Of a DNA stretch of 36,683 nt, positions 7,238 through 34,343 are shown piece by piece. The stretch is from positions 1 to 36,683 of IMG/VR virus record IMGVR_UViG_3300030419_001557; one strand, written 5' to 3'. Numbering within the stretch: the first letter of the stretch is position 1; every line of letters begins with the position of its first letter. The notes beneath the pieces are model-generated. The model made no database searches and was not told where the DNA came from. It saw nothing but the letters and a program-made list of their open reading frames with translations. This stretch comes from a virus. A program made the position numbers and the translations under genes.

Positions 7238-8122
7238 TTAAGCTGAGTTGTTAGTTGCTAAAGCTGAAGATTTAAACTTGAGACCAGCTCCTTTGCTGTC
7301 ATCTAACTCAAATACACCATAATCTGAGGTAATAACGACCTCAGTGGCTCTCATCGATGCGTCTCGCTGCCTCTCTGTTCTAGTCTCTACAGAATTAAGA
7401 ACTGCCATAGCTGACTTGTCAGCAATAACTCCTGTTGAATCATTTGAAGAATCAATTTCTAAGTTACCATCTTCAAATATAGATACACCATTCATAGGTC
7501 TTAATCCACTATAAAAGTCTTTTAATAAATCGGCAGACCATCCATTTGAAATCTCACCTGCAGCTGCTGTAGAAGCAGTCGTAGCTGATTCTTTTGAAAG
7601 AAAAGCAACTGCATTAGGATGATGCAGGATATAAACCTGACTACCAAACTTATTAGCTTTAGCATATGCTATTGCTCCATGAACATTGTCTGCTCTCATA
7701 TCTATTGTTGTAGCTCCAAGAAGTTCACCGCCATTCAAGGTACTATACAATGAATGAACATCTGTATCTTTCTTTCTTGCCATTGCATCACCTAGCTGTT
7801 TACCAATTATTGTGAATACATTGTTTTGTTGTTCACGAACAAGTTTATCAGTTAAGATAACTTTAGCTCCGACTTCTGCTGCTGTTAAGTCAACAGTTGT
7901 CATTCCAATTTCTTCTTCGTCAACAATGTCTTGACCATCTGTTAGATCAGATACAGTCATTTGCCCTACTTTTGGAACTGTTACTTGTTTAGCTCCACTT
8001 GGAAGGCTAAAGCTCTCTATCAGAGCCATTGCTGGAGCATTATGCTCCTCGGTATATCTAGCTGCTGCAATAATAATCTTGCTCGCATTTTCTAAATTAC
8101 CAGTTGTCGCTGTTTGTGCCAT
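7238..8122 (-). CDS. Major capsid protein
   Basis: The 294-aa protein starts at ATG 8122 behind TAGGAGGAAG. Its features fit an HK97-fold capsid subunit: a helical N-terminus (NASKIIIAAARYTEEHNAP), an early strand block with alternating acid residues (VTVPKVGQMTVSDLTDGQDI), a long central helix near 115-130 and a peripheral domain with YILHHPNAVAFLSK, then TEVVITSDYGVFELDD close to the C-terminus. Length is typical. The scaffold-like gene lies directly upstream. Confidence is high from order and pattern although no single residue is diagnostic. Confidence 0.9.
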   Translation of the reverse strand: MAQTATTGNLENASKIIIAAARYTEEHNAPAMALIESFSLPSGAKQVTVPKVGQMTVSDLTDGQDIVDEEEIGMTTVDLTAAEVGAKVILTDKLVREQQNNVFTIIGKQLGDAMARKKDTDVHSLYSTLNGGELLGATTIDMRADNVHGAIAYAKANKFGSQVYILHHPNAVAFLSKESATTASTAAAGEISNGWSADLLKDFYSGLRPMNGVSIFEDGNLEIDSSNDSTGVIADKSAMAVLNSVETRTERQRDASMRATEVVITSDYGVFELDDSKGAGLKFKSSALATNNSA

Positions 8123-8154
8123 TACGACTTCCTCCTATTTAAAGGTTTATAAAA

Positions 8155-8904
8155 TTACCCAAGACCTGCTGCTCTGCGAGCTGCTGCCTCAGTGTCAGGA
8201 TTACGAACCCCTGCGTTATATTGATCCAATAATCTTGCCTCACTGGAACTGGCTTCTGCTGGAGCTGTGCTATTATCAAAGCTCTGTGCAGGAACTTGTT
8301 GCTTCTTTAACTTAGCGTTTTCCTCTTTGAGTGACCTAAGTTCGGCTTGATGCCGTGCTGCAACTTCCATTTCTTGAGGGGTCTTGAACTTAATCAACTG
8401 TTCTGGATCAACATTGTACTGCTTTCCATAATGCAAGGAAGCCTTGTACTGACCTTCTATAAACTCTTTTTCCTGTGCAAACTTTTGTTGCTGTTGCACA
8501 GTTTGGTTTTGCTGATGATAATACTGTGATGCCATAGATTGTGCTTGGTCGCTACTATACCCTTGTTGCAATAACTGATCTCTGTATTGTTCAGCTTGCT
8601 GTCTTACCTGTTCAACTTGCCTTTCTCCTTCTAGTTGAGCAATCCTAGTTTGTTGTTCTTGTAATTGCTTTTCTAAATTGTTTTCTGGCTCTGCTGTTGC
8701 AGGATACGTGCCTAAATCAGTTTCTTCTTTTGTAGTTTCTGTTGTCGCAGTAGATGGTTCTGCTGTAACTTCAGTCCCTTCAGTAGAAGTTTCTTCAGAC
8801 GGCACTTCCGTAGGAGCTTCTGTTGGAGCTTCTGTAGTAGGCGTAGTATCTGTAACCAAATTTAACTCTGGCTGTGTATCAGATGTATTATTTTCATTTA
8901 CCAT
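8155..8904 (-). CDS. Capsid scaffold protein
   Basis: The 249-aa product starts at ATG 8904 (TTTCCTCC read in reverse gives AGGAGGAAA). Residues 1-75 are a Thr/Glu/Pro-rich low-complexity segment, residues 76-215 are Gln/Glu-rich long helices (EKQLQEQQTRIAQLEGERQV and similar) with coiled-coil character, and the tail is short and basic (TEAAARRAAGLG). Acidic N-terminus, helical body and basic capsid-binding tail is the standard scaffold layout, and the gene sits immediately before the major capsid gene. Confidence 0.88.
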   Translation of the reverse strand: MVNENNTSDTQPELNLVTDTTPTTEAPTEAPTEVPSEETSTEGTEVTAEPSTATTETTKEETDLGTYPATAEPENNLEKQLQEQQTRIAQLEGERQVEQVRQQAEQYRDQLLQQGYSSDQAQSMASQYYHQQNQTVQQQQKFAQEKEFIEGQYKASLHYGKQYNVDPEQLIKFKTPQEMEVAARHQAELRSLKEENAKLKKQQVPAQSFDNSTAPAEASSSEARLLDQYNAGVRNPDTEAAARRAAGLG

Positions 8905-21029: not shown

Positions 21030-21140
21030 ATTCAATTTTTATTCAAATCTTTTCAAATTCTTTTCAAATTCTTTTCAAATCTATTCAACGTTTATTCAAA
21101 AGTATTCAAAATTTATTCAATTTTATTCAAATTTATTCAA
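21030..21140. repeat. Eleven TTCAA repeats phased at 10.5 bp
   Basis: The core (A/T)TTCAA begins at 21030, 21041, 21051, 21062, 21073, 21083, 21094, 21104, 21115, 21125 and 21135. Steps alternate 10 and 11, averaging exactly 10.5 bases, the helical repeat of B-DNA. Every core therefore faces the same side of the helix and the T- and A-runs around it would add up to intrinsic curvature. The array is 313 bases upstream of the orphan 425-aa gene. Iteron, centromere-like and bent-DNA functions are all possible; none is shown. Confidence 0.85.
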
Positions 21141-21280
21141 CGCATTATTTTAATAGTATTTAATAGTGATTCTTTTTTTTAGTAATTTATCGCTTTTATT
21201 TTTTTATTTTTAACGCTGTATTTTTCAAGCCTTTAAAATTCCAGGCTACCCTTCATAAAACACGCTAAAAAATAGCCTTT

Positions 21281-21302
21281 TGTCGTGAGTCCATTCACGA
21301 CA
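21281..21302. repeat. 22-bp palindrome, left copy
   Basis: Arms TGTCGTGAGT and ATTCACGACA surround CC, with one mismatch in the arms. It differs from the right copy (22834-22855) at a single base. It sits eleven bases upstream of the -35 box of the candidate promoter for the 425-aa gene, a normal place for an operator. Confidence 0.75.
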
Positions 21303-21453: not shown

Positions 21454-22731
21454 ATGAAACTACAAGAGTTAACAGAGTTAAAAAAGGTAAATGTAGGATT
21501 ATCAACAAAAGGTATAGAGAACCTAGAAGATCATAAACTAATGAAATCTAAAATGGAATATTTCAAAAATTTGAATGATTCATACAGTAAAAGTTTTCAA
21601 GGTTTTGTACTAGGTTTTCAAAATTCCATGAATGGTAATTCCTTGTACTACACACTAAGTACAAAAGGGTATAAAAACGATAAAAAAATTACTAGTGATG
21701 AGTTAGTTAATTTAGGAATCGTTGACAAATCCGTTTTTGGTTATAATTTAGAGTCATATGGTATTGAGTCCGTTAATGTTAGTTTTCAAGCGAATTCTAA
21801 CTATAACGATTCAATCGGTAGCACTATAAATAACATGACCAAACAGTACAAAAAAGGAATCAAAAATCTAATTATGAACATTCCGTTAACGTTATTTTCA
21901 GATATGGATTATTCGTTAGAAAAACTTGATTTAATTATTAAGATTTTCGAATATCAATTATCTAGTAATAATGAAGTGGTAGGACTTAACAACGGATTAA
22001 AAGCCAATTTGATACCATTACTTGAAAAATTTGGTTATCAAGCAACGAAATTAAGCCGTCAAGAAATGAAAAATAATTCTGATTCATACATTGAATTTTC
22101 AAAAGAAAAATTTACAGTGAAAAAAGAATTATCAGACATTTTAAAACCATTTAAGACAGAACTTCTAAAATACAAAGCTGAAATTGAAAAACTAAATACA
22201 AAATTTGGTTATGAAGATTCAGCCGATACTAAAGAGAATCCTGGCAGTAAAAATGGTCAAAATAATCCTTATAATTATGTGTACATATTAGAACATATAA
22301 ATATAAACGAAATGGATAAACAAACGGCTATAACTAAGACTTCAACAAGTGGTAACTATAAAAGGCTAAATAGTATTGAGTTTAACGACTACATACATTC
22401 AAACCATATTGATTTAACCAAAACAACAAAAGGTAAAATCAAAAAGGATAATACATATTTGTATTATTTGAAGTTTGAACCAAGTGGAAAGTTTAATTTC
22501 AATATCTATTCCGTTAAGGTTCCAAGTGGTGTAAATATTACTACTATAAACAAACTAAGAAACGATAATATGAAACCACTAAACAAAAACAAAAAAGATT
22601 CTTTAACTGAAAGCGAACAAAAAGCTAGAAAATCAGTTGATAAATCAAACGCTAAAAAGGTTACAAAAAAGGCTAAAGAAAATGAATCAATAGTTTATGA
22701 AGATTCATTTTTCAAAATTCCCAAAAAGTAA
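21454..22731 (+). CDS. Orphan lysine-rich 425-aa protein
   Basis: The protein starts at ATG 21454 with AAAGGG seven bases upstream. I do not recognise the family. Visible layout: mixed region 1-130; helical block 130-250 with amphipathic segments (SLEKLDLIIKIFEYQLSS; ELSDILKPFKTELLKYKAEI); Asn/Gly-rich linker 253-273; beta-rich part 274-360 (NYVYILEHININ, NTYLYYLKFEPSG, FNFNIYSVKVPSG); strongly basic linker 372-410 and an acidic-aromatic end. It looks nucleic-acid-binding. It is monocistronic, with its own promoter and terminator, bracketed by inverted repeats and two palindromes and next to the phased array. In a genome without recognisable replication enzymes, a replication initiator is an attractive guess; a regulator or a mobile cassette gene are alternatives. 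Confidence 0.85.
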   Translation: MKLQELTELKKVNVGLSTKGIENLEDHKLMKSKMEYFKNLNDSYSKSFQGFVLGFQNSMNGNSLYYTLSTKGYKNDKKITSDELVNLGIVDKSVFGYNLESYGIESVNVSFQANSNYNDSIGSTINNMTKQYKKGIKNLIMNIPLTLFSDMDYSLEKLDLIIKIFEYQLSSNNEVVGLNNGLKANLIPLLEKFGYQATKLSRQEMKNNSDSYIEFSKEKFTVKKELSDILKPFKTELLKYKAEIEKLNTKFGYEDSADTKENPGSKNGQNNPYNYVYILEHININEMDKQTAITKTSTSGNYKRLNSIEFNDYIHSNHIDLTKTTKGKIKKDNTYLYYLKFEPSGKFNFNIYSVKVPSGVNITTINKLRNDNMKPLNKNKKDSLTESEQKARKSVDKSNAKKVTKKAKENESIVYEDSFFKIPKK

Positions 22732-22833: not shown

Positions 22834-22855
22834 TGTCGTGAGTCCACTCACGACA
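22834..22855. repeat. 22-bp palindrome, right copy
   Basis: Perfect ten-base arms TGTCGTGAGT and ACTCACGACA around CC, starting two bases after the terminator T-run. With the left copy it brackets the 425-aa unit (1.57 kb). A TATTAT box starts 17 bases after GTCGTG, so the site may also overlie a promoter for the following region, though the -35 is poor. Confidence 0.8.
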
Positions 22856-29440: not shown

Positions 29441-30847
29441 ATGCAGATAGGAGATGTGTTTAGTGCGTTTGATGGATTGTCTGGTACGCAAGTAGCTCTT
29501 AACCAAGCAGGAATTAAGTATGGAACTTATTATTCTAGCGAAGTTGACAAGTATGCGATACAGATAGCCCAAAAGAACTACCCAAAAACAGTCCAATTAG
29601 GCGATATAAGGAACATAAAAGGTAAAGACCTAGGTAACATACACCTGATGGTCGGGGGCTCGCCTTGTCAAGGATTTTCTTTTGCTACTAATGGCAGATT
29701 AAATTTTGATCACCCTCAATCCGTGTTGTTCTTTGAGTTTGTCCGTTTGTTGAAAGAAGTTAAGCCACGATATTTCTTATTAGAAAATGTCAGGATGGCA
29801 AACAAACATAAGAAAATAATATCTGATTATTTAGGAGTTGAGTCAATTGAAATTAATAGTTCTCTTCTAAGTGCTCAGAGTCGTAAGAGACTTTATTGGA
29901 CAAATATACCAGGAGTTAAGCAGCCTGAAGATTTAGGCGTAATATTAGCAGACATACTAGAAAATGACGCAACAGAACCAATGTACTCTAATATATACGG
30001 GGGATTCAAAGAAAAAGAACCACGGGAACATTACAATAAATCAGTCACTATTAGGACCGCATCTGGCGGGGGACATATTCCTTCAGTTACTAAGAAAATA
30101 CATAGAAGGATAGAAAAACAAACAGTTAAAGTACGAAAACACAAACTAGACAAACAATTTGTATTGCTGTTAAGAGATTGTAGATCAATGGCAAAGTTAA
30201 GTAAGGGAATAACAACAAGAGATATTGCAAAGCATTGTGGTGTTCCACTTACACAAGCAGAACACTGGTTTAGAAAAGACAGCTCGTTTTCTATTCCACC
30301 TTCAGAGATATGGAACAAGTTAAAAGAGATATTAAATGCAGAAATTATGTTAAAAGAGTATGACAAATTCATCACAGAGTTTGAAGAAAAAGAAGGGGTG
30401 TTTGAAATGGCAGAAAGAATAACTTTGCCAGACGGAAAACACCCTACTCTTACAGCTAGCACAAGTGGAAGTAAAATAGATACTAAGTATTGGATGACTG
30501 AGAAACAAAAAGAGTTTTTGTGTGACGAGACAAGGTTGAAGAAAAAATACACAGCCATAGACGGAAACAAAGCGTTAACTATGACAGGGGCTTATGCTAG
30601 GTGGCAAGGCACGCATATACAAACAGATAAAAAACCTTTTAATAAAAGTGATGTACGCAAGCTAACACCAAAAGAAGCAGAACGCTTGCAAACATTACCA
30701 GATAATTACACAGAGGGGGTGAGTGATACACAAAGATACAAAATGATTGGCAACGGGTTCACTAGCTTGGTAATAGCTCATATATTAAGTTATATGAAAG
30801 ACAACCCAAAGCCACTTAAATTTCAAAGACAAATAAAATTGTTATAG
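29441..30847 (+). CDS. C5-cytosine DNA methyltransferase
   Basis: The 468-aa enzyme starts at ATG 29441. Motif I is FSAFDGLSGT (7-16); motif IV GGSPCQG has catalytic Cys76; ENVR (115-118) is motif VI; QSRKRLYW (146-153) is motif VIII; the C-terminal RKLTPKEAERLQTLP (406-420) and MIGNGF (435-440) are motifs IX and X. It transfers a methyl group from S-adenosylmethionine to cytosine in DNA. Residues about 230-300 form an inserted helix-turn-helix-like block (ITTRDIAKHCGVPLTQAEHW) followed by SIPPSEIWNKLKEIL, likely part of target recognition. No cognate restriction enzyme gene is nearby, so protection against host restriction or epigenetic marking is likely. Confidence 0.93.
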   Translation: MQIGDVFSAFDGLSGTQVALNQAGIKYGTYYSSEVDKYAIQIAQKNYPKTVQLGDIRNIKGKDLGNIHLMVGGSPCQGFSFATNGRLNFDHPQSVLFFEFVRLLKEVKPRYFLLENVRMANKHKKIISDYLGVESIEINSSLLSAQSRKRLYWTNIPGVKQPEDLGVILADILENDATEPMYSNIYGGFKEKEPREHYNKSVTIRTASGGGHIPSVTKKIHRRIEKQTVKVRKHKLDKQFVLLLRDCRSMAKLSKGITTRDIAKHCGVPLTQAEHWFRKDSSFSIPPSEIWNKLKEILNAEIMLKEYDKFITEFEEKEGVFEMAERITLPDGKHPTLTASTSGSKIDTKYWMTEKQKEFLCDETRLKKKYTAIDGNKALTMTGAYARWQGTHIQTDKKPFNKSDVRKLTPKEAERLQTLPDNYTEGVSDTQRYKMIGNGFTSLVIAHILSYMKDNPKPLKFQRQIKLL

Positions 30848-30848
30848 C

Positions 30849-30877
30849 TTGACACAAATGATAATATATGATATTAT
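30849..30877 (+). promoter_or_regulatory. Strong sigma-70-type promoter
   Basis: TTGACA (30849-30854), 17 bases, then TATTAT (30872-30877). This is the best promoter in the window. It starts transcription near 30884, directly ahead of a structured leader and the gene set 31044-34343. It begins two bases after the stop of the methyltransferase. Confidence 0.8.
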
Positions 30878-30883
30878 ATGTAT

Positions 30884-31043
30884 AGAACAAATAAAAATGT
30901 GATAACAAAGTAGCTTAGTAACTTTAGTTATAAGGTTTGTATAATTAAATATAGGGAAAGTTACTTTAATGTACCCCGAGCCTGTTCTTTGTTGTCACTA
31001 AATAAAACAAATAAAACAGAAAGAAAAAAATAAAGGAGACGTT
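30884..31043 (+). ncRNA. Structured leader RNA with predicted pseudoknot
   Basis: The 160-base leader between the strong promoter and the 70-aa gene folds by eye into an outer stem of 12 pairs, GTGATAACAAAG (30899-30910) with CTTTGTTGTCAC (30987-30998), one of them G-U. Inside is a nine-pair stem AGTAACTTT (30917-30925) with AAAGTTACT (30957-30965). Loop bases AGGTTTG (30933-30939) can pair with CGAGCCT (30977-30983), forming a pseudoknot. A competing local hairpin, CTTA-TAACT with AGTTATAAG (30914-30934), would break the inner stem. It could be a riboswitch, a protein-binding leader or a small RNA. The class is not one I recognise. Confidence 0.6.
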
Positions 31044-31256
31044 ATGGTAGTACAAAAAACAGCCCCACAAGTTGTAAGTTCAGTTGTAACTAGTTCTGGA
31101 GACCGCATAAGAATCAATGTTTCTACATCAGTAAAAGGTGTAAAGACATATGATTGTACTGTGGAAAGTCAGCACGGAATGGATTATGCTTTTGACTTAC
31201 ACAGACAGCTGGTAGCAAAACTTGACAGTGAATACCCAAACAGCGTACAGGTATAA
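31044..31256 (+). CDS. 70-aa protein downstream of the structured leader
   Basis: ATG 31044 follows AAAGGAGACGTT. The protein is Val/Ser-rich with a beta pattern (SSVVTSSGDRIRINVSTSVK, KTYDCTVES) and a C-terminal helix HRQLVAKLDSEYPNS. It begins the second plus-strand transcription unit and so would be directly controlled by the leader. No family recognised. Confidence 0.8.
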   Translation: MVVQKTAPQVVSSVVTSSGDRIRINVSTSVKGVKTYDCTVESQHGMDYAFDLHRQLVAKLDSEYPNSVQV

Positions 31257-31258
31257 CA

Positions 31259-31489
31259 ATGTCATTGTTTGATTTTTTACCAGAAAAACAAGGCAAAGAA
31301 GAACATTTGCATGTTATAAAAGTCTTTGATTGCGACAAAGACGCTTTCTTAATAGAAAGAGAAATGTCTGCTGTTACAGAGTTTCAAAATAACCAAGGGT
31401 ATATTTTAGACAAAGTAGTAGCTACAGACAATCGCATAGCTTTGTTTTTTACAAAGCTACACTTTTACATAAAACTATCCAACAATTAG
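31259..31489 (+). CDS. 76-aa protein of unknown function
   Basis: ATG 31259 comes two bases after the previous stop, without its own strong ribosome site, so translational coupling is likely. The protein begins MSLFDFLPEKQGKEEHLHVI and alternates strands and short helices (KDAFLIEREMSAVTEF, YILDKVVATDNRIALFF). No known family. Confidence 0.78.
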   Translation: MSLFDFLPEKQGKEEHLHVIKVFDCDKDAFLIEREMSAVTEFQNNQGYILDKVVATDNRIALFFTKLHFYIKLSNN

Positions 31490-33169: not shown

Positions 33170-33397
33170 ATGAGCTGCGGAGAACCAAGTAAACATCCAG
33201 AGTTGTTTGAAGAAGAGATATCTAAAAACGAAATGTTAAAGATATTTTTAAAGGCTGTAGATATAACGCCTACTAACATGATTATGCAAAACGGAGTTAT
33301 ATCTAAGACAGACAAGAACTGGTACGGCAATAAAGTTAGACATAATTTTATTATTTTAAAAGAAATATGGGAGACATTAGAAGATGAAACTTTATGA
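33170..33397 (+). CDS. 75-aa protein overlapping the N4/N6 methyltransferase
   Basis: ATG 33170 follows AAAGGAGGTAGT. The protein is acidic and helical at the front (SKHPELFEEEISKNEMLKIF), has DITPTNMIMQNGVISKTD in the middle, and ends LKEIWETLEDETL. Its last 14 bases overlap the start of the methyltransferase, so translation of the two is coupled. No family recognised. Confidence 0.8.
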   Translation: MSCGEPSKHPELFEEEISKNEMLKIFLKAVDITPTNMIMQNGVISKTDKNWYGNKVRHNFIILKEIWETLEDETL

Positions 33398-34343
33398 ACA
33401 ATCAAATAATTTAAGTTTATATCATGGAAATAATATAGACGTATTAAAACAAATGGAATCAGAATCAGTTGACTGCGTTGTAACATCTCCGCCTTATTGG
33501 GGGCTGAGAGACTACGGAACAAGTGAGCAGCTTGGGCTTGAACCTACTCCAGAAGAGTATGTTGCTAACATGTCTAAAGTGTTTCAAGAAATACACAGAG
33601 TGTTAAAATCTTCAGGAACTGTTTGGCTTAATCTAGGCGACAGTTATGCAGGATCTAATTCTGACAAATATTCAGCCCCAAATAAAAATACTTTGTCTGC
33701 AAAAATGGGACAAACTTACGGAGGAATAGAAAAATCTATCAAAGCAAAAGTCCCTGGGTTAAAACCAAAAGATTTAATTGGTATTCCTTGGCGTGTTGCA
33801 TTTGCACTACAAGCAGACGGATGGTATTTAAGATCAGATATTATATGGCAAAAACCTAATCCTATGCCTGAGTCTGTTAAAGATAGACCTACCAAATCAC
33901 ATGAATATATATTCCTGTTAACTAAATCAAGAAAATATTATTATGATGCAGACGCTATTAAAGAGCCTACTGTTTCTCAAGACAAGTACAAACGAGACAG
34001 AGATAATCCTGATTACAAATTTAACAACACTCCTGGAAGAACTAAAATGTCTGGATTAAAAGACAACAAATACAAACACAGAAACAAAAGAGATGTATGG
34101 AGTATTAATACCAAGCCATACAAAGAAGCACACTTTGCTGTGTTTCCAGAAGAGATCCCAATGAATTGTATTAAAGCTGGCAGCCCTAAAGACGGAGTCG
34201 TTTTAGACCCTTTTGCTGGTAGCGGAACAACGTTAAAAGTAGCACTAGGACTAGGCAGAAAAGCAATAGGAATAGATATCAATACAGAGTATCTTGATCT
34301 CTGTATTAAACGCTGTAACGAAATTCAGAATATTCTTATTTAA
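33384..34343 (+). CDS. N4-cytosine/N6-adenine DNA methyltransferase
   Basis: The 319-aa enzyme starts at ATG 33384. The catalytic motif IV TSPPYWGLRDYG lies near the N-terminus (34-45) and the S-adenosylmethionine site DPFAGSGTT near the C-terminus (275-283), the order of the beta class. SPPYW is more often seen with N4-cytosine enzymes, but the base cannot be decided from sequence. Residues 190-240 (KYKRDRDNPDYKFNN) are a charged, probably target-recognising segment. It methylates phage DNA, probably against restriction. It is the last plus-strand gene and overlaps the end of a convergent minus gene by eight bases. Confidence 0.92.
   Translation: MKLYEQSNNLSLYHGNNIDVLKQMESESVDCVVTSPPYWGLRDYGTSEQLGLEPTPEEYVANMSKVFQEIHRVLKSSGTVWLNLGDSYAGSNSDKYSAPNKNTLSAKMGQTYGGIEKSIKAKVPGLKPKDLIGIPWRVAFALQADGWYLRSDIIWQKPNPMPESVKDRPTKSHEYIFLLTKSRKYYYDADAIKEPTVSQDKYKRDRDNPDYKFNNTPGRTKMSGLKDNKYKHRNKRDVWSINTKPYKEAHFAVFPEEIPMNCIKAGSPKDGVVLDPFAGSGTTLKVALGLGRKAIGIDINTEYLDLCIKRCNEIQNILI

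Follow-up and report, generated by a model that had tools for sequence, protein, structure and literature searches.

Layout of the locus

The window analyzed here is the whole 36,683-base record of an uncultured virus, and the element under study lies in it between a C5 cytosine methyltransferase gene and a gene for a 70-aa protein (Table 1). An earlier note on this DNA had described a strong, near-consensus promoter at this position, and this claim was borne out: the −35 (TTGACA, 30849-30854) and −10 boxes (TATTAT, 30872-30877, preceded by TG) are separated by a 17-nt spacer and match 11 of 12 consensus positions. In the closest relative of the window, referred to here as the sister phage (contig 3300030109_002494, L004/L041), a promoter matching all 12 positions (TTGACA-18-TATAAT; L041:9789-9818) is kept at the equivalent position despite an altered spacer and altered surroundings.

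Approximately 15 nt past the expected transcription start begins a structured element, which we call module I, and no + strand ORF of at least 20 aa overlaps it. We found no + strand terminator between position 30998 and the 70-aa gene, and the ribosome-binding site of that gene lies approximately 35 nt beyond the end of the element, largely unpaired and not sequestered by the fold. The downstream genes had been read as an operon of DNA-binding, recombination, and methyltransferase genes, which agrees with the weak HTH_17 match, RusA-like nuclease, and N6/N4 DNA methylase that we found there. The C5 cytosine methyltransferase on the other side of the promoter carries an HTH-like stretch inserted between conserved motifs.

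Table 1. Features at the module I locus and module order in the arrays of related phages
Feature	Position	Strand	Remark
C5 cytosine methyltransferase	29441-30847		ends 1 bp before promoter
Sigma-70-type promoter, TTGACA-17-TATTAT	30849-30877	+	start expected near 30884
Module I (structured RNA), 100 nt, bounded by closing stem P1	30899-30998	+	also in L041, L011, L012, L014
P1, 5' strand, GUGAUAACAAAG	30899-30910	+	
P2, 5' strand, AGUAACUUU	30917-30925	+	
Competing hairpin, GUAAC-UUUA-GUUAU	30918-30931	+	excludes P2
Pseudoknot, 5' strand, AGGUUUG	30933-30939	+	2/7 pairs broken in sister phage
Pseudoknot helix extension, 5' strand, UAU	30940-30942	+	30942 covaries with 30971
P2, 3' strand, AAAGUUACU	30957-30965	+	
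Pseudoknot helix extension, 3' strand, GUA	30971-30973	+	
Pseudoknot, 3' strand, CGAGCCU	30977-30983	+	
P1, 3' strand, CUUUGUUGUCAC	30987-30998	+	
Unstructured, A/U-rich linker; Shine-Dalgarno AAAGGAG of 70-aa gene	30999-31043	+	without terminator
Gene of 70-aa protein family (RINVSTSVKGxKTYD)	31044-31256	+	array-phage homologues downstream of another structured element
N6/N4 DNA methylase	33384-34343		
Array order, L011			A-L2-I-J
Array order, L012			A2-W-F-I-J
Array order, L014			A-B-C-D-E-F-G-H-I-J
Array order, L016			A-B-A2-K-Q-J
Array order, L021			T-U-J plus A-B-K-L
Array order, L024			T-U-J plus A-B-E-M-L-F-H
Array order, L025			A-B-C-D-G-R-A2-S-J
Array order, L035			A3-X-N-O-K-L-J
Array order, L038			A-K-A2-J

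Fold of module I

The four pairings that had been proposed for the leader are all present in the sequence: a 12-pair outer stem (P1, with one U-G), a 9-pair inner stem (P2), an optional 7-pair pseudoknot helix (with two U-G pairs), and a competing hairpin that pairs 30918-30922 with 30927-30931. When the 195-nt region was dinucleotide-shuffled, 2 of 400 sequences contained a stem as long as P1, and the fold of the whole element had a z score of −3.1. Of 4,000 shuffles of the 76-nt core, 37 contained a 9-pair helix crossed by a 7-pair helix and 3,891 contained some 7-pair helix with at most three G-U pairs, so the pseudoknot taken alone is no evidence. With pseudoknots disallowed, the fold of lowest energy (−25.3 kcal/mol) contains P1 and the competing hairpin, with the 7-pair helix in nested form, and P1 and P2 alone give −17.5 kcal/mol. 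The pseudoknot-free energy model thus prefers the hairpin and nested helix, but either inner conformation may be the one adopted. The pairs of P2 and of the crossing helix can both form, and a pseudoknot in module I, possibly of the H type, is plausible.

Distribution of module I

Using three differently placed sequence patterns, we found true copies of module I only in the sister phage, L011, L012, and L014, each record holding a single copy; these scans relied on exact patterns, with which diverged copies may be missed. The approximately 100-nt element recurs at 95-97% identity in L011, L012, and L014, and the similarity stops at the closing stem, with unrelated flanks on either side. Module I lies upstream of the 70-aa gene in two phages, and in the other three it lies within arrays of further modules, before other modules and genes. 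A search with a covariance model of the fold, as suggested in the earlier note, recovered all five copies at 126-138 bits, with the next best hit in 309 kb of related loci at 17.6 bits. Pattern matches in L015, L017-L020, L022, L023, L026-L029, L031, and L032, as well as in L033, L034, L036, L039, and L040, were due to chance, and the module is absent from these records.

Patterns for module I and for module J, described below, matched nothing in 84,980 prokaryote genomes. Among cultured phages, the leader DNA gave weak matches only, module I alone matched at chance level, and the L014 array had no match. The best E-value for the leader DNA (3e-4) belonged to MT835498, which shares the promoter-like A/T sequence only and does not contain the fold. 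The terminases of the window and L014 are 72% identical, which indicates that the two phages are related, and terminase relatives in cultured phages, mostly actinophages, are only approximately 25% identical and too distant to name a host.

Rfam 15, whose families include riboswitches, 6S, GOLLD, ROOL, and abiF RNA, yielded no match at the gathering threshold over the window, none up to E = 5 within 30700-31300, and none in seven array or neighbor loci; the L014 array returned sub-threshold eukaryotic families only. ARAGORN reported no tRNA or tmRNA gene in the window and eight loci. Our literature searches, which covered open-access papers, turned up no description of such arrays, and by comparison with these papers and Rfam 15 they appear to be new.

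A small RNA ending before position 31000, possibly 6S-like, had been offered as an alternative to a leader. The discrete RNA fits the wider evidence better than a leader does, but its 6S-like form does not. 6S RNA is approximately 180 nt long and forms a single long hairpin interrupted by a central bubble. Module I would share with it the discrete RNA and the long closing stem, but it has neither an Rfam match to 6S nor a central-bubble hairpin; its stem closes off a folded core, at 100 nt in all. We regard a 6S-like function, in binding the RNA polymerase of the host, as highly improbable.

Conservation and covariation across the five copies

The five copies (window, sister phage, L011, L012, and L014) are 93% identical. 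Every pair of P1 and P2 is kept in all of them, each stem showing a single substitution that yields a G-U wobble, and one pair in the 3-pair extension of the pseudoknot helix (30942/30971) truly covaries, being C-G in two copies, U-A in two, and U-G in one. On the other hand, two of the seven pseudoknot pairs are lost in the sister phage, with a 3-nt insertion ahead of that strand, and overall covariation in the five copies was not above that in shuffles (131/500). Because the copies are so similar, the compensatory changes anticipated for all three stems are mostly missing, and the covariation case for module I by itself is weak. The case for a functional sequence rests on conservation that starts and stops sharply at the closing stem while the sequence around it is unrelated, and the high identity of the copies may reflect recent transfer instead of constraint.

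The pairings of P2 and of the competing hairpin are mutually exclusive and both survive in five of five copies, and module I contains invariant single-stranded stretches. These features would suit a ligand-sensing riboswitch leader that switches between P2 and the local hairpin, for which a nucleotide or S-adenosylmethionine had been suggested as the signal. However, such a leader is unlikely, and clearly so, because an expression platform is absent, with no terminator and an unmasked ribosome-binding site, and because the element also occurs apart from this operon, in three phages within arrays that have different downstream genes. The lack of an Rfam match up to E = 5 also speaks against it.

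Arrays of stem-closed modules

L011, L012, and L014 carry module I within arrays whose modules are each closed by a stem, measure 40-105 nt, and are separated by short A/U-rich linkers, and scans for its companion module and for the array start added L016, L021, L024, L025, L035, and L038 (Table 1). Module letters are seed-based labels for at least 20 families, with I being the window element, and seed matches far from arrays were ignored. Each array contains 3-10 different modules and lies between genes on the same strand. Module A is usually first and module J usually last, and the inner modules are gained or lost in a largely collinear order; the module that precedes module I differs in each array. 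The L014 array (7640-8490) fills approximately 850 nt of intergenic sequence with ten unlike modules, and we found neither strong promoter-like nor terminator-like sites in its interior, nor any promoter-like site just upstream of its module I. Across eight arrays, non-overlapping stems with 9 or more pairs numbered 33, ten times the 3.4 in shuffles (maximum of 8), and the closing stems of the modules have 9-16 pairs. No other module family was found at meaningful similarity in the window or sister phage.

Module J covaries clearly, with 6 pairs changed on both sides, a number that none of 500 shuffles reached. The changes fall in a hypervariable, covarying hairpin, and one falls in a proposed pseudoknot helix (UUCCUGU/ACAGGAA vs UUCCCGU/GCGGGAA); the second pseudoknot helix is invariant within J. 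Module D, which is shorter and related to J, has different complementary strands in both pseudoknot helices. J (L014:8383-8482) and D (L014:7911-7970) have in common AACAGCUUAAYG and a proposed H-type pseudoknot with compensated helix differences. In two modules that are otherwise unrelated, the same short hairpin, GATTTGTAATC, can be present or absent as an addition at the tip (module L, L021:11957-12028 vs L024:175-236; and the J hairpin of L011).

Since the boundaries of module I are sharp, coincide with inverted repeats, and go along with movement between genomes, the element could act as a hairpin at the DNA level, be it a hairpin-type mobile element or a site for recombination, replication, or packaging, and the RNA fold would be incidental. 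The closing-stem sequence that several modules have in common (AGAGAGTA.../...TACTCTCT) could then serve as recombination homology. However, a promoter immediately precedes the element in two phages, and neither a target-site duplication nor a recombinase partner was seen. The one-sided changes within P1 and P2 both give G-U on the + strand and never A-C, which fits an RNA of + sense; a further stem set agrees, though it was partly chosen with G-U allowed. Module J, moreover, covaries in a fold with an asymmetric pseudoknot. Together, these findings make a DNA-level hairpin an unlikely explanation.

The 70-aa gene and element V

The 70-aa gene family is common to the window and the array phages; the proteins are only about 45% identical, in contrast to the 72% of the terminases. 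The predicted structure of the protein is beta-beta-beta-alpha (pLDDT 70), and a fold search with it returned no significant match; a role for it as a partner of the leader RNA is conceivable. In array phages, the homologue lies downstream of a different structured element, V (L012:5869-5949, L014:10545-10630, and L053:9878-9959), which is stem-closed and has two inner hairpins (UUGGYU loop). The closing stems of V are compensated (GAGGGAGUGG/CCACUCCCUC, GAGGAAGUGG/CCACUUCCUC, and GGGGGAGUGG/CCAUUCCCCC). In the window lineage, the position held by V is occupied by module I with its own promoter, and structured modules thus appear to be exchangeable between array and leader positions.

This position also suits a cis-acting role, the main rival reading, in which the fold would change elongation by RNA polymerase, as HK022 put RNA does, or set the cleavage or stability of the operon mRNA, as a T7 RNase III site does. 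Antitermination by put acts through the zinc-binding domain of the RNA polymerase beta' subunit. Module I lies directly behind the operon promoter, as putL lies directly behind an early promoter in HK022 (PMC9378689), and the window operon is likewise inferred to be early. In addition, all modules are upstream of co-oriented genes, and V takes the same place before the 70-aa gene. On the other hand, the put RNAs (putL/putR) are two stem-loops in approximately 70 nt with common sequence that act in cis on RNA polymerase, whereas in module I a single P1 encloses the entire internal fold and the element also occurs in arrays. A single cis function would hardly account for ten successive modules that differ from each other, and the L014 array has no strong promoter-like or terminator-like sites inside. 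We regard a cis role as a possibility to be taken seriously, though one that is probably not correct.

Module I as a candidate exchangeable RNA cassette

With the promoter, the stems, the conservation bounded by the closing stem, and the two different contexts established, the reading we prefer, and to which we give about an even chance, is that module I constitutes a discrete cassette of structured RNA that is exchanged horizontally in a family of uncultured tailed phages, would be cut from early transcripts, and is predicted to act in trans. In the window and sister phage, the module stands alone as the first segment of the operon transcript, and in related phages it is one of several in an array. 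A host ribonuclease, RNase E for instance, would cleave the A/U-rich single-stranded flanks and thereby release the core, which is stem-closed and probably pseudoknotted, or leave it protected. The freed RNA would bind a host protein in trans, most likely as a decoy against a defense or RNA-handling protein. The various modules would then be directed at different hosts or targets, and this would account for their gain and loss. Sharp ends at closing stems, A/U-rich single-stranded flanks, and modules that are unlike each other would be expected of small, trans-acting RNAs excised from a polycistronic transcript. Phages are known to block defense with RNAs that imitate those of the host, such as pseudo-ToxI (PMC3475682) and the RNA anti-CRISPR Racr (PMC10651486), so a decoy role for module I is a reasonable prediction by analogy.

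Several known systems resemble such a cassette in part. ToxI, the type III toxin-antitoxin RNA, and phage pseudo-ToxI are small, intergenic, phage-borne RNAs, plausible as decoys, with a pseudoknot of a kind that may also form in module I, but ToxI consists of tandem repeats of approximately 36 nt beside toxN. The modules described here are unlike each other, module I is present once per record, and we recognized no toxin or defense gene of a known RNA-antitoxin system among the neighbors scanned. Racrs are likewise solitary small phage RNAs that act as mimics of host RNAs; they mimic CRISPR repeats and are short, whereas module I is approximately 100 nt long. Phage tRNA arrays and stable-RNA clusters are likewise tandem structured RNAs between genes that are separately gained or lost; however, the window and array loci scanned contain no tRNA or tmRNA, and the modules have long closing stems. 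The AbiF-associated RNA (Rfam RF03085) is also a phage-borne structured RNA, one that acts on a toxin protein, but module I has no Rfam match and no Abi_2 gene was recognized beside it.

More tentatively, the arrays as a whole could be sets of interchangeable, partly pseudoknotted RNA cassettes from at least 20 families, each an effector against a different host protein, with the window element being a cassette that has its own strong promoter; we think this broader proposal is less likely to hold than the one for module I. If true, the arrays would be the RNA counterpart of the anti-defense protein islands of other phages. To our knowledge, few phage-encoded RNAs have a known function (put RNA, pseudo-ToxI, RNA anti-CRISPRs, and pRNA), and an array system through which a single phage family exchanges at least 20 structured RNAs that are unlike each other would add a large, new set of functional RNAs. 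As a lone module behind a strong promoter, the window element offers a good handle, being expressible and testable by itself.

Other repeats in the window and related records

Elsewhere in the window, an exact 21-nt inverted repeat (21391-21411/22761-22781) surrounds an unassigned 425-aa ORF (21454-22731), and near-identical palindromes, GTCGTGAGTCCAYTCACGAC, lie outside it at 21282-21301 and 22835-22854. Iteron-like TTATTCAAA repeats occur in a divergent intergenic region (21040-21150), which may be a replication origin. Outside the arrays, a conserved 115-nt inverted-repeat element (TGAAGGGAAAATAGGGTC...CCCTTCA) is present in L012 (8902-9016) and L007 (5355-5469).
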